Under the pieces are notes generated by a model. The model searched no databases, was not told where the DNA came from, and saw only the letters and a list, made by a program, of their open reading frames with translations. Shown one piece after another: positions 7,672 through 12,680 of a stretch of DNA of 50,361 nucleotides. Source of the DNA: Candidatus Binataceae bacterium (lineage in GTDB: Bacteria > Desulfobacterota > Binatia > Binatales > Binataceae). The DNA lies in contig JAMXLL010000181.1 of NCBI GenBank assembly GCA_024281015.1, positions 1 to 50,361 on the forward strand. The letters run 5' to 3'. Position 1 is the stretch's first letter; each line of letters begins with the position of its first letter. The position numbers were made by a program, and so were the translations under genes.

Positions 7672-8022
7672 ATGGACCATGTAACCCTTTACCATAATCC
7701 CGCCTGTAGCCACTCGCGCGGCGCCTTGGCACTGCTGACTGAACGCGGCGTTGTTTTTGATACGATCGAGTATCTTAAAACTCCACCCACACGCGAAGCG
7801 CTCGAGGGAATTATCGGCATGCTGGAAGGTCCGGTCGCTGATATGGTGCGCAAGGACAAGCGGTTTGAGGAGCTTAAGTTAAATGCCTCTGACTACACCA
7901 CCAGGGAAACCGTTGTACCATTGCTCCTACAGCATCCGGAGTTGATGCAACGCCCGATCGTGATTCGCGGCGGCCGCGCTGTCATCGCGCGTCCCGCCAA
8001 CCTGCTGGAAAATCTCTTCTAG
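7672..8022 (+). CDS. ArsC-family (glutaredoxin-fold) reductase
   Basis: A 116-residue cytoplasmic protein of the ArsC/Spx group. The N-terminal TLYHNPACSHSRGALALL carries the catalytic Cys12 in the family's NPxCxxSR context, and the C-terminal QRPIVIRGGRAVIARP matches the arsenate/glutathione-binding end of plasmid-type ArsC and of YfgD. The length is normal for the family. The reaction would be glutathione/glutaredoxin-linked reduction of arsenate, but chromosomal members without an ars operon often have other or unknown roles. No arsB, arsR or acr3 gene is present. GAGGA lies about six bases before the ATG. Confidence 0.88.
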   Translation: MDHVTLYHNPACSHSRGALALLTERGVVFDTIEYLKTPPTREALEGIIGMLEGPVADMVRKDKRFEELKLNASDYTTRETVVPLLLQHPELMQRPIVIRGGRAVIARPANLLENLF

Positions 8023-8064: not shown

Positions 8065-8253
8065 TCAAGCGCGCTTCTGGACGCGCCCGCTTCTAAGACA
8101 CCGGGTACAGACCAGGACACGTTTGACACCGCTAGGCGCGGCGGCGCGCACTTCCTGAAGATTAGGGTTCCATCGTCGCTTCGTCTTGTTGTTGGCGTGG
8201 CTGACGTTGTTGCCGACCGAGGGCCGCTTACCGCAAATCGCACAATGTCTCAT
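8065..8253 (-). CDS. rpmB: 50S ribosomal protein L28
   Basis: A 62-residue protein beginning [20 protein letters not shown], which is diagnostic of L28. It belongs to the zinc-binding C+ form, with cysteine pairs C4/C7 and C49/C52. [13 protein letters not shown] and the end RSGRVQK are also standard. The frame is open to an upstream in-frame ATG at 8280, but 8253 gives the normal family N-terminus. The gene stands alone, converging on the ArsC-like gene and diverging from the aminotransferase leader. The usual partner rpmG is not adjacent. Confidence 0.96.
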
Positions 8254-8342
8254 TGTTGAATTTTCTACCCTCGCCCGCATATGGCGGGCCAGCTGACTTG
8301 TTCAACTTAGCGGGGCTGGGATTGATATTAAAGAGGGGGCAT

Positions 8343-8380
8343 TCGAGGCGAGGCGCCTTGACTCCTATCCGCGCCTCCGA
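8343..8380 (+). promoter_or_regulatory. stem-loop in the leader of the aminotransferase-serA operon
   Basis: TCG (8343-8345) pairs with CGA (8378-8380), and AGGCG (8346-8350) pairs with CGCCT (8372-8376), with one bulged C at 8377. It precedes the intrinsic terminator at 8430-8470, so together they could form a folded leader. No known riboswitch class is recognised, and a chance hairpin cannot be excluded. Confidence 0.35.
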
Positions 8381-8429
8381 TATTGAATTCACGGTAAGTA
8401 GCTGTCCGCCCATCAATACCGCATTTGGG

Positions 8430-8470
8430 GTCTGGCGTCCGGAAGAAAGGCCGGCACCAGGCTTTTTTTT
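8430..8470 (+). terminator. strong intrinsic terminator 20 bases before the aminotransferase start
   Basis: GTCTGG (8430-8435) pairs with CCAGGC (8457-8462), one pair being G-U. After a small internal irregularity, CCGG (8439-8442) pairs with CCGG (8451-8454) round the loop AAGAAAGG. The hairpin runs directly into eight T residues (8463-8470). No plus-strand gene ends just upstream (the ArsC-like gene ends at 8022 and L28 is on the other strand), and the aminotransferase GTG is at 8491. The position suggests transcription attenuation of the serine operon. Alternatively it ends read-through or a small RNA. Confidence 0.75.
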
Positions 8471-8490
8471 GAGTAAACCCGCGTTCTCTC

Positions 8491-9642
8491 GTGAAACAGC
8501 CTACCAAACAATATCTGTTTACCCCCGGTCCCGTTGCGGTTCCGCCGGAGGTATTGCTGGAAATGGCGCAGCCACTGATCCATCATCGCACTCCCCAATT
8601 CAGTGCGGTCCTGGATTCGGTCCGACAGAACCTGAAGCCGCTATTCGGTACTGGTCAGGAGATAATCCTACTGGCTTCGAGTGGTACGGGTGCGATGGAG
8701 GCGGTGGTCGCCAACCTGCTCGATCCCGCCGATGAGGCTATTTATGTCAATGGCGGTAAATTCGGTGAACGCTGGGGCAAGCTTATTGCCGCGCATGGTG
8801 CCGTTCCACATGAGGTCAAGGTCGAATGGGGCCGCAGCGTCTACCCCACAGACATCGAACATGCACTCGCAATAAATCCGGCCACTCGCGCAGTTTTCGT
8901 CCAGGCTAGCGAAACCTCGACAGGAGCCCTTCATCCGATTGACGAAATCGGCAAGATCACGCATAGGCGCGGGGTGTTGCTGGTGGTCGACGGCATCACC
9001 TCGGTTGGCGTCTTCGAGCAGAAGATGGACGAATGGGGGGTCGACGCCTTCGTCACTGGCAGTCAAAAAGCGCTCATGGTCCCCCCCGGACTGGCAATGG
9101 TTACACTTTCGGAGCAGGCGTGGGGCCGTGTCGGGAAGTGCCGAGGAAGGCGCTATTATTTCGACCTCGAGCGTGAACTGAAAGCGCAGCGCGACGAGCA
9201 CACGACCGCGTACACTCCTGCGGTCGGGCTCGTGTTAGGGCTGAACAAGGCACTTGAACTCATAAGCGCGGAAACCTTGCCCCGAGTGTTTGCACGGCAG
9301 CAAATGATGGCGGAGGCGACGCGCGCGTCGGCACGAGCGCTCGGCTTGCAACTGTTTGCCGACAATCCTGCCCCCGGCCTGACCGCGATGATAACACCCC
9401 AGGGGATTGATAGCGGCAAAGTAGTCCGCTGCATGCGCGATGAGCTTGGCGTCTGGGTACAGGGAGGCCAGGACCACATGAAGGGCCAACTAATCCGCAT
9501 CGGCCACATGGGTTATCTCTCTCCCTTTGACATGCTGACCGCGGTCAGCGCGCTCGAAATCGCGCTGGCCAAAGCAGGCCATGTTTTCGAATCCGGCACC
9601 GGAGTGGCGGCGGTGCAAACACGTATCAGTCGGGGTATGTGA
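8491..9642 (+). CDS. class V aminotransferase, probable phosphoserine/serine-type
   Basis: A 383-residue PLP enzyme of the alanine/serine-glyoxylate aminotransferase group. The N-terminal FTPGPVAVPPEV, the FGTGQEIILLASSGTGAMEA phosphate-binding turn, VVDGITSVG and the PLP lysine Lys193 in GSQKALMVPPG are all present. The only start that keeps the conserved TPGP segment is the GTG at 8491, which lacks a clear Shine-Dalgarno. It is followed after four bases by serA. Since no classical serC is seen, it probably acts as the phosphoserine aminotransferase, converting 3-phosphohydroxypyruvate to phosphoserine, as proposed for several lineages. That role is inferred from context; serine-glyoxylate transamination remains possible. 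Confidence 0.93.
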   Translation: MKQPTKQYLFTPGPVAVPPEVLLEMAQPLIHHRTPQFSAVLDSVRQNLKPLFGTGQEIILLASSGTGAMEAVVANLLDPADEAIYVNGGKFGERWGKLIAAHGAVPHEVKVEWGRSVYPTDIEHALAINPATRAVFVQASETSTGALHPIDEIGKITHRRGVLLVVDGITSVGVFEQKMDEWGVDAFVTGSQKALMVPPGLAMVTLSEQAWGRVGKCRGRRYYFDLERELKAQRDEHTTAYTPAVGLVLGLNKALELISAETLPRVFARQQMMAEATRASARALGLQLFADNPAPGLTAMITPQGIDSGKVVRCMRDELGVWVQGGQDHMKGQLIRIGHMGYLSPFDMLTAVSALEIALAKAGHVFESGTGVAAVQTRISRGM

Positions 9643-9646
9643 CAGT

Positions 9647-11242
9647 ATGGCGGAAAAATTCCGCGTTCTTTTGAGTGATTCACTCGCCCCGCAGGGGATC
9701 GAGCTCTTGCAACGCGATTCGCGCATTCAGTGCGATATACGCACTGGCCTTACCCCGGCTCAGTTGGCGGAGACAATCCCGCCATACGATGCACTGCTGA
9801 TACGTAGTTCCACCCGGGTGACCCGTGAGGTCATCGACCGGGCATCTTCCTTAAAGGTAATCGGGCGCGCCGGAGTCGGCGTAGATAACGTCGACCTGGA
9901 CGCCGCGACGCGGCGCGGCATCGTGGTGATGAATAGCCCCTTAGGTAACAGCGTCACCACCGCCGAGCACGCGATCGCGATGATGATGGCTATGTCACGC
10001 CATATTCCAGCCGCTGACGCGGCAACCCGAGGCGGCAAATGGGAGCGCGGCAAATTCACCGGGATCGAAGTTTTCAACAAAACGCTGGGAATTATCGGGT
10101 TGGGCAATATCGGCCGGATCGTCGCGGATCGCGCACTCGGGCTTAAGATGAAGGTGATCGGATTTGATCCGATCTTGACCAGCGAAGCGGCCACTCGCAT
10201 TGGTGTCGAAATGGTCGGCCTCGACGAGCTTTTCTGCCGCGCCGATTTCATAACAGTCCATACTCCGCTGACTAGCGAAACTCGCGGTCTAATTGGGGCG
10301 GCGGCGTTCGCATTGATGAAGTCCACTGCGCGGGTGATTAACTGCGCGCGCGGCGGCATTATTGACGAAGATGCATTGTATGCTGCCCTCAAAAGCGGCC
10401 GGATTGCCGGCGCAGCGCTCGATGTCTTTGTCGATGAACCCCCGCCGCCGACTCATCCGCTGCTCACGCTCGACAGTGTCATCGCAACGCCCCACCTCGG
10501 GGCTGCTACCGGCGAGGCGCAGGTACAGGTCGGGATCGATATCGCCCACCAGCTGATCGAGTTTCTGACGGAAGGGACAATGCGCCATTCCGTGAACATT
10601 CCGGCGCTGACCCCCAAAGAACTGGAAACCCTCGGACCCCACCTGGCGTTGGCGGAAAAGTTGGGACGGTTGGCCGCGCAGTTGATCGAGCAGGCCCCCA
10701 GCCATGTAGCAATCGGGTTGGCCGGAGAAGCCGCCAATCTGAAAGCCGAGCCGATCGTCGCCTCTGCTCTCAGCGGGCTGCTCAGCGGTTTTCTGGACCA
10801 GCAGTTCAATCTGGTGAATGCACCGTATATCGCAAGAGAACGGGGAATTACTGTCACAGAGACTCGTTCGCGCGAAACGGCTGACTACGTCAATGTGCTA
10901 ACGCTCACCGTTCGGACTGCCCAAGGTGTTCACGACGTCGCTGGGTCGGTGGTCGGGAATCGGGCGCTTCGGCTTATTCGGATCGATGGTTATCGGATCG
11001 AGGCCAGCCCTGACGGCTATTTCCTGATGCTCCATAACCGAGACGTGCCAGGCGTGGTGGGAGCGATTGGCACTCTCCTGGGAGAAGCAGGAATTAATAT
11101 CGCCGGCCTGGAGCTCGGACGCGATCGCATTGGCGGAATGGCCCTGAGCCTGGTCGAAGTCGATGGGCCGGTGCCCGGCCCCGTACTGGAAACTCTGAAG
11201 ACTATTCCCGCGATTACCTCTGCGACGCTGGTCAAATTATGA
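9647..11242 (+). CDS. serA: D-3-phosphoglycerate dehydrogenase
   Basis: A 531-residue long-form PGDH, the first enzyme of serine synthesis: 3-phosphoglycerate + NAD to 3-phosphohydroxypyruvate. The NAD-binding site GLGNIG is at residues about 151-156. The catalytic triad is visible as Arg235 (NCARGG), Glu264 (VDEP) and His283 (TPHLG). After the catalytic core come an ASB-type intervening domain (about 320-450) and a C-terminal ACT domain (about 458-531, starting YFLMLHNRDVPGVVGAIGTL), which in this family binds serine for feedback control. The ATG at 9647 was chosen because it lies four bases after the aminotransferase stop; upstream in-frame codons fall inside that gene. It is most likely co-transcribed with it and perhaps with purA. 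Confidence 0.97.
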   Translation: MAEKFRVLLSDSLAPQGIELLQRDSRIQCDIRTGLTPAQLAETIPPYDALLIRSSTRVTREVIDRASSLKVIGRAGVGVDNVDLDAATRRGIVVMNSPLGNSVTTAEHAIAMMMAMSRHIPAADAATRGGKWERGKFTGIEVFNKTLGIIGLGNIGRIVADRALGLKMKVIGFDPILTSEAATRIGVEMVGLDELFCRADFITVHTPLTSETRGLIGAAAFALMKSTARVINCARGGIIDEDALYAALKSGRIAGAALDVFVDEPPPPTHPLLTLDSVIATPHLGAATGEAQVQVGIDIAHQLIEFLTEGTMRHSVNIPALTPKELETLGPHLALAEKLGRLAAQLIEQAPSHVAIGLAGEAANLKAEPIVASALSGLLSGFLDQQFNLVNAPYIARERGITVTETRSRETADYVNVLTLTVRTAQGVHDVAGSVVGNRALRLIRIDGYRIEASPDGYFLMLHNRDVPGVVGAIGTLLGEAGINIAGLELGRDRIGGMALSLVEVDGPVPGPVLETLKTIPAITSATLVKL

Positions 11243-11315: not shown

Positions 11316-12680
11316 ATGAACACCCTCGCAGTGGTCGGCTCGCAATGGGGCGATGAAGGTAAGGGCAAAATTGTCGACCTCCTCGCCGCTGATGCCGACG
11401 TAGTCGTTCGATTTCAGGGCGGCAACAACGCAGCTCATACGCTGGTAGTAAATGGGGAGAAATTTATCCTGCGCCTGGTGCCCGCGGGTGCGCTCCATCA
11501 AAGCAAAACCTGCGTCATCGGCAATGGCACGGTTGTCGACCCAATAGCTCTGCTCGCAGAAATCGACGGCCTCAAACGGCGCGGTCACCTGCGCGACAAT
11601 TCACTGCTGAAGCTAAGCAACGACGCGCACATGGTGATGCCCTATCATCGAGCGATTGATCGCGCCCGCGAGGACCTGCTGGGCAAGAGCGCAATTGGAA
11701 CTACCGGTTTCGGCATCGGACCCGCCTATGAAGACAAAATGGCGCGGGTAGGACTCCGGTTCGATGATTTGACTGATTTCAATTCCTTTCGCGAAAAGCT
11801 CGAGCGCAACATCCGCGACAAGAATGCCTACTTGAAAACGATCCTGAAGGCCAAACCTGTCGCAGGTGCCGAAATCGTCGAACAGATGCGCGCCGCCCGG
11901 GGCCGCTTGAGGCGCTATCTATGTGATACGTCGGCATTTCTGCAGCAGGCTATCGCCGGCGGCAAACGAGTCCTGTTCGAAGGTGCCCATGGCGTAATGC
12001 TCGACATCGACCACGGCACTTATCCATTCGTAACTTCATCCAATTGTAGTGCCAGTGCAGTTTTCAGCGGCGCCGGGATCGCCCCTGGCAGCCTCGACGG
12101 AGTACTCGGGATCAGCAAGGCGTACACGACACGGGTTGGCAGCGGACCATTTCCGACAGAAATCAGCGGGCGGCTTGCAGACGCAATGCGTGAAGAGGGG
12201 AGCGAGTTCGGCAGTGCGACCGGCCGTCCCCGGCGAATTGGCTGGTTCGACGGCGTGCTGACGCGCCATGCGATTCGATTGAACGGGATGTGGGGAATCG
12301 CGTTAACCAAGCTGGACGTGCTTACAGGTATCGATCCGGTGAAAATCTGCGTGGGTTACCAGCTCCGGGGAAAACGCATCGACCAGCTTCCGCCAAGCCG
12401 GCAGATGCTGGGCAAAGTCCGGCCGGTTTACGAGTCACTGCCGGGCTGGCAGGAAAGAATCGACCACGCCCGCTCGCTGCAAGACTTACCAGTAAATGCG
12501 CGGCGCTACCTCGAACGTTTGCAGGAATTCTGCGGTGTCCGCCTCGCGATGGTCGGCGTGGGCGCCTCCCGTGAGGCCACAATCATCCTGGAGCATCCGT
12601 TTCTCGCGCTCAAATCCACGCCGGCACGCCGACTTTCCGGCTCGCGTAGCGGGAAAGTAATCGGACCACCGACGGCGTGA
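11316..12680 (+). CDS. purA: adenylosuccinate synthetase
   Basis: A 454-residue enzyme that joins IMP and aspartate using GTP, the first committed step to AMP. The P-loop-like GSQWGDEGKGKIVD carries the catalytic Asp13, and His41 lies in NNAAHTLVVNG, matching E. coli numbering. IGTTGFGIGPAYEDK, TRVGSGPFPTE and TKLDVLTG are all conserved. The family normally ends near the ILEHPFLAL segment. Here some 20 extra residues follow (STPARRLSGSRSGK and on), which overlap 71 bases of the convergent phosphotransferase gene. It starts 73 bases after serA. In deltaproteobacteria hisZ often sits between serA and purA; it is absent here. Confidence 0.96.
   Translation: MNTLAVVGSQWGDEGKGKIVDLLAADADVVVRFQGGNNAAHTLVVNGEKFILRLVPAGALHQSKTCVIGNGTVVDPIALLAEIDGLKRRGHLRDNSLLKLSNDAHMVMPYHRAIDRAREDLLGKSAIGTTGFGIGPAYEDKMARVGLRFDDLTDFNSFREKLERNIRDKNAYLKTILKAKPVAGAEIVEQMRAARGRLRRYLCDTSAFLQQAIAGGKRVLFEGAHGVMLDIDHGTYPFVTSSNCSASAVFSGAGIAPGSLDGVLGISKAYTTRVGSGPFPTEISGRLADAMREEGSEFGSATGRPRRIGWFDGVLTRHAIRLNGMWGIALTKLDVLTGIDPVKICVGYQLRGKRIDQLPPSRQMLGKVRPVYESLPGWQERIDHARSLQDLPVNARRYLERLQEFCGVRLAMVGVGASREATIILEHPFLALKSTPARRLSGSRSGKVIGPPTA

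Follow-up and report, generated by a model that had tools for sequence, protein, structure and literature searches.

Genes and features at the locus

The window analysed here is a 50,361-nucleotide stretch of DNA from a Candidatus Binataceae bacterium (contig JAMXLL010000181.1). Within it, an intergenic gap of 237 bases (8254-8490) separates rpmB from the first gene of an operon, which encodes a class V aminotransferase and is followed by serA and, as the next gene on the same strand, by purA (Table 1). The first-pass annotation, made from the letters of the window, had stated that no plus-strand gene lies directly upstream of the aminotransferase; this is correct, as rpmB is encoded on the minus strand. 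The top NCBIfam match of the aminotransferase was the aspartate-glyoxylate aminotransferase BhcA, with a score under the cut-off of that family. A relative of the aminotransferase was present in all 57 genomes searched, and tblastn placed rpmB next to it only in L001 and L002, i.e. in the window's own genus. An ArsC/Spx-like protein is also encoded at 7672-8022, with a score slightly under the arsC cut-off.

Table 1. Features of the aminotransferase-serA-purA locus (positions in the window).
Feature	Position	Strand	Description	Basis
rpmB	8065-8253	-	ribosomal protein L28; divergent neighbour of the aminotransferase	TIGR00009, above cut-off
Predicted promoter	8358-8386	+	-35 TTGACT (8358-8363), 17-nt spacer, -10 TATTGA (8381-8386)	sequence; conserved in relatives
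Leader	8393-8428	+	predicted start site to terminator; usually a small GC hairpin, sequence unconserved	self-folding
Terminator hairpin	8429-8462	+	imperfect; lower stem GGTCTGG/CCAGGC with an unpaired spot above it (C opposite A)	folding, covariation
T8 tract	8463-8470	+	exactly eight T, of the intrinsic terminator	
Aminotransferase gene	8491-9642	+	class V; first gene of the operon; GTG start at 8491	ORF
serA	9647-11242	+	phosphoglycerate dehydrogenase	TIGR01327, 668.5 bits (cut-off 454)
purA	11316-12680	+	adenylosuccinate synthase; next gene on the same strand	NF002223, 584.2 bits (cut-off 402)

The gap contains the strong hairpin and run of eight T that had been noted before, ending 20 nt ahead of the GTG. 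The hairpin reads GGTCTGGCGTCCGG-aagaaagg-CCGGCACCAGGC and the T8 tract follows it at once, so that positions 8429-8470 are what defines an intrinsic terminator, a GC-rich hairpin joined directly to a U tract. The segment 8420-8475 folds at -19.9 kcal/mol, the hairpin has a z-score of -1.55, and the entire gap (~237 nt) is not unusually foldable (z = -0.27). A simple terminator scan of the window did not report the hairpin at 8429-8470, probably because of its internal mismatch. Taken alone the hairpin is thus statistically unremarkable; it is its conservation in relatives, described below, that makes it more than a chance fold. No Shine-Dalgarno-like sequence was visible between the T run and the GTG, at 8471-8490.

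A predicted promoter upstream of the terminator

A promoter-like sequence precedes the terminator. In all 26 leaders of a first set of relatives (see below), TTGAC precedes the last T of the T run by 104-116 nt, as located by a script that required TTGAC itself and allowed distances of 70-190 bases; the -10 region was conserved as a GCTCCGTTATCC-like sequence, and the promoter of the set can be written TTGACN-17-TATNNN. From the position of the -10 element, transcription is predicted to start at about 8391-8394. The leader between this site and the terminator folds on itself somewhat better than shuffled sequences (combined z = -3.4 over 25 relatives, which are not independent).

If this promoter is correct, all transcripts of the operon reach the terminator first, because the GTG lies only 20 bases past the T run, too near for another promoter to fit in the window. 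As far as sequence can tell, this is the layout of a transcription attenuator: a predicted promoter upstream of a terminator, with the gene too close for a second one. A start downstream of 8470, which the first-pass annotation had set against its own reading, finds no support. A second stem that it had placed at 8343-8380 overlaps the -35 element and the spacer, and should therefore be missing from the RNA; by eye, it has no counterpart in the sister species. The spacing differs in genus g6 and in L007, where the T run lies 71-95 nt before the gene, and in those lineages a second promoter is possible.

The terminator is confined to Binataceae

The relatives include metagenome assemblies of Candidatus Binataceae and Candidatus Binatus soli, and others labelled only Deltaproteobacteria or Proteobacteria; these record titles are the ground on which family f1 of the genome searches is called Binataceae here. 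In the first set, 26 of 34 Binataceae loci had TTGAC followed by a GGGGTCTGGCG...CACCAGGC-type hairpin that leads straight into a T run. A model built from these 26 leaders, R1, matched 32 of 41 Binataceae genomes, once in each, and in 31 of them the match lay in front of this aminotransferase, as its leader. The 32nd match, G018:C43 (E = 0.002), is not on the contig that carries the aminotransferase of that genome and looks like chance. Five leaders were gained through the R1 search and joined the later tests, for a total of 31. Within the class, the only R1 match outside Binataceae (G092, weak) was a groEL terminator, and a search of 297 genomes of the phylum gave no R1 match.

All together, the terminator was present in 31 of 39 inspectable Binataceae loci, in a single copy per genome and always before the aminotransferase. 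It was absent from eight loci of five genera (L013, L015, L019, L026, L031, L032, L033 and L034), showing that it is dispensable in those genera. A TTGAC promoter-like site is retained in four of them, L013, L015, L019 and L034. On the aminotransferase tree, two changes suffice to explain where the terminator occurs in Binataceae, such as a gain early on and a single loss; the tree is thus compatible with a terminator that arose early in the family and was lost few times.

The hairpin appears constrained in its letters

We next compared the conservation of the terminator with that of its surroundings, using pairs of relatives whose aminotransferases are at most 80% identical. Mean pairwise identity was 0.88 for GGGGTCTGGCG, 0.77 for CACCAGGC and 0.97 for T8. 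By comparison, four-fold degenerate sites of the gene had 0.50, the stretch of leader ahead of the terminator 0.33 and the promoter spacer 0.29. The stem was paired in 93.5% of cells (29-52% when it was slid), and its covariation exceeded that of shuffles (0.217 versus 0.136 +/- 0.012). Double changes were in excess of shuffles chiefly in the upper stem, and the CUGG/CCAG pairs were nearly invariant. Directly above the CUGG/CCAG stem an unpaired spot occurred in 30 of the 31 leaders, with C opposite A in 25.

The terminators of groEL in the same family served as a control, which is indicative only, being a single gene with a composition skewed to GCC repeats. The T run was exactly eight in 31/31 Binataceae leaders and ranged from 4 to 9 in 22 groEL terminators; the eight bases preceding it had an identity of 0.75 in the leaders and 0.44 in the groEL terminators. 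The leader hairpins were generally weaker (median -18.5 kcal/mol) than the 22 groEL GC hairpins, which spanned -18.8 to -32.3 kcal/mol and by eye were mostly unbroken. With a fixed lower stem, a fixed defect and a fixed T8 in the leaders, whereas the groEL terminators drift, selection appears, from these alignments, to act on the letters of the hairpin as well as on its stability.

No aptamer or alternative pairing is found in the leaders

The first-pass annotation had read the layout as that of an attenuator or riboswitch, had suggested a new serine-, glycine- or phosphate-sensing leader, and had said that its proposal would fall if nothing but the terminator stem were conserved or covarying. 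This is what the aligned relatives showed, apart from the promoter and a small hairpin of low conservation. RNAalifold detected no covarying helix in the leaders beyond the terminator stem, and a scan of column pairs gave no convincing second helix. Duplexes of the leaders with the terminator arms were not in excess over shuffled leaders (combined z = -0.65 for the 5' arm and -1.9 for the 3' arm). Several candidate pairings were rejected. An antiterminator of the form GGGACG/CGUUCC or GGAC/GUCU fits some clades and ignores the sequence changes in others; the recurrent 4-bp GGAC/GUCU match does not covary and, by inspection, is absent from several lineages. An outer helix between bases near the -10 element and bases before the terminator, short matches of which are visible by eye in many relatives, would have its 5' strand mostly upstream of the expected start. 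No leader peptide was conserved either: start codons and peptides vary, and no ORF precedes the terminator in L003, L005 or L008.

As the first-pass annotation recognised no known class, so Rfam searches at the gathering score, and at E values up to 5-10, returned no relevant match in the window or its relatives; at E values up to 5 no family matched the leaders of 20 relatives. Low-threshold matches to MAT2A_D (E = 3.5), mir-1825 and ncS011 were at chance level. A riboswitch is expected to have a structured, conserved aptamer and a mutually exclusive antiterminator pairing; the leaders (identity 0.33, no helix outside the terminator) displayed neither. Without aptamer conservation, antiterminator or Rfam match, it is unlikely that the leaders hold a riboswitch of the usual aptamer-bearing kind. 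Of the earlier reading, the attenuator layout is thus supported, with its predicted promoter, its terminator and no room for a second promoter, and the new sensing riboswitch is not.

A ZTP riboswitch occupies the same position in sister families

In the other families of the class, the ZMP/ZTP riboswitch (RF01750, pfl motif) immediately precedes this aminotransferase at 9 of 16 loci (L037, L038, L040, L041, L042, L044, L046, L047 and L048), at or above the gathering score. Whole-genome searches gave RF01750 in 12 of 22 other-family genomes and no match anywhere in the 35 Binataceae genomes searched. Other matches in genomes of these families lie away from the aminotransferase loci that we read, in L071, L074, L078, L083 and L085, the last below the cut-off. 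This class is known from purine and one-carbon genes (PMC2864571; PMC7266159). Its presence before aminotransferase-serA fits the use of serine to supply one-carbon units to purine synthesis.

The ZTP leaders share with those of Binataceae the operon and the position between promoter and aminotransferase. They too end in an intrinsic terminator, whose 3' arm is often CCAGGC followed by 6-8 T. The Binataceae leaders, however, do not match the ZTP model, and resemble it only in a CUGGCG hexamer and in the 3' arm of the terminator. Since CUGG is forced by pairing with CCAG, and the shared CUGGCG and CCAGGC-T8 are short, they are weak evidence of descent; a derivation from the ZTP aptamer by deletion, for which these are the only signs, was set aside. 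Plausibly, the operon was ancestrally controlled by a ZTP riboswitch, with later loss or replacement of the aptamer.

Comparison with other leader systems

Protein-controlled terminator attenuators, of the pyr/PyrR, trp/TRAP and bgl/LicT type, work with a pairing that is clearly defined, be it an antiterminator or an anti-antiterminator. The Binataceae leaders are similar to them in placing in front of an operon a terminator with a sequence-specific, conserved RNA hairpin, but a counterpart of their pairing switch was not found.

Serine tRNAs usually end in GCCA, which is complementary to UGGC. The conserved UGGC of the hairpin could in principle pair with a tRNA end, as in a T-box, and T-box leaders do control serine genes, e.g. 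serA of Paenibacillus polymyxa (PMC8002221). The likeness is that of leader-RNA control of serine biosynthesis; the Binataceae leaders, in contrast, have no antiterminator, no Rfam match and neither Stem I nor specifier loop, for which the ~40 nt before the terminator leave no room. A T-box-like reading of GGGUCUGGCGUUCCGCG was rejected: the letters are suggestive, but Stem I is lacking, the UGGC lies within the terminator stem and L003 has UGGA. The serC RNA motif, which precedes serC-serA genes (PMC7266159), is likewise an RNA element in the leader of an operon for phosphoserine aminotransferase and serA; the all-Rfam scan gave no match, although the scanned library may not include this motif.

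A candidate attenuator of the aminotransferase-serA-purA operon

We consider it probable that the element is a Binataceae-specific, promoter-proximal transcription attenuator acting on the aminotransferase-serA-purA operon. Starting at about 8393, RNA polymerase would transcribe some 70-80 nt of leader and stop at T8 (8463-8470) unless formation or action of the hairpin is prevented, so that the operon would be expressed by read-through only. We infer that this read-through is regulated, rather than observe it, because a conserved antiterminator, leader peptide and aptamer are all absent. The conserved lower stem and the C.A defect may be where a trans-acting factor makes contact. As no alternative RNA pairing was found, this factor would most likely be an antiterminator protein that binds RNA, or else some other factor acting on the elongation complex. 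Such an attenuator would have taken the place of a ZTP riboswitch, or decayed from one.

The same features could be read as a constitutive damper, i.e. a partly leaky terminator that holds expression low without any signal, possibly a ZTP remnant left after loss of the aptamer. Alternative pairing, aptamer and leader peptide are indeed absent, the hairpin is imperfect and only moderately stable, and sister families have the ZTP riboswitch in the same position. For a damper, stability would suffice without particular letters; because the leaders keep their lower stem, defect and T8 fixed where groEL terminators drift, we think this explanation possible but unlikely. A further reading, which we regard as doubtful, is a compact and hitherto undescribed regulatory RNA. 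In it, the conserved CUGGCG/CACCAG lower stem and the C.A defect would make the terminator hairpin a recognition site for a metabolite, a protein or uncharged tRNA, and the hairpin would have taken over from the ZTP riboswitch in Binataceae. Equally compact, a new riboswitch might let a serine, glycine, purine or folate signal act on the 40-45 nt leader or on the C.A hairpin; the genes fit one-carbon and serine metabolism, relatives have a riboswitch at this position, and the conserved non-pairing spot in the helix could be used by a ligand as by a protein. Conservation stops at the terminator, though, with no second covarying helix or exclusive pairing, and Rfam matches are absent at 20 loci even at E = 5, which makes such a riboswitch improbable.

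The predicted promoter and the terminator also form a unit of fitting size for a trans-acting small RNA of ~70-80 nt, with a variable hairpin ahead of the terminator, the operon being expressed by leakage. It would be surprising, however, for such an RNA to lie always directly before the same gene and nowhere else in 31 genomes, and to have its conserved letters in the terminator stem and not in a free seed region; as a second operon promoter has no room in the window either, we judge it very improbable. Hardly credible, finally, is a DNA operator, in which a repressor would bind the inverted repeat with its conserved half-sites as double-stranded DNA and T8 would be secondary: T8 is exact, at the position of an RNA terminator, in 31/31 leaders, and compensatory changes in the upper stem maintain RNA pairing.

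As a candidate attenuator, the locus looks like a natural replacement, with the ZTP riboswitch untraceable in Binataceae and a terminator apparently selected for its sequence in the same position. It may serve as a test case for riboswitch loss or replacement, and points to a putative factor that recognises a terminator hairpin. A literature search, which covered few subscription journals, returned no paper containing both 'Binatota' and 'riboswitch'. For the other families of Binatia, the ZTP riboswitch before aminotransferase-serA is in itself a useful gene association. Two loci of family f5, L039 and L045, have no ZTP match upstream of the aminotransferase; at L045, a promoter-like TTGACT stands ahead of another kind of hairpin with its T run, a layout suggesting that leader terminators may be common ahead of this operon across the class.
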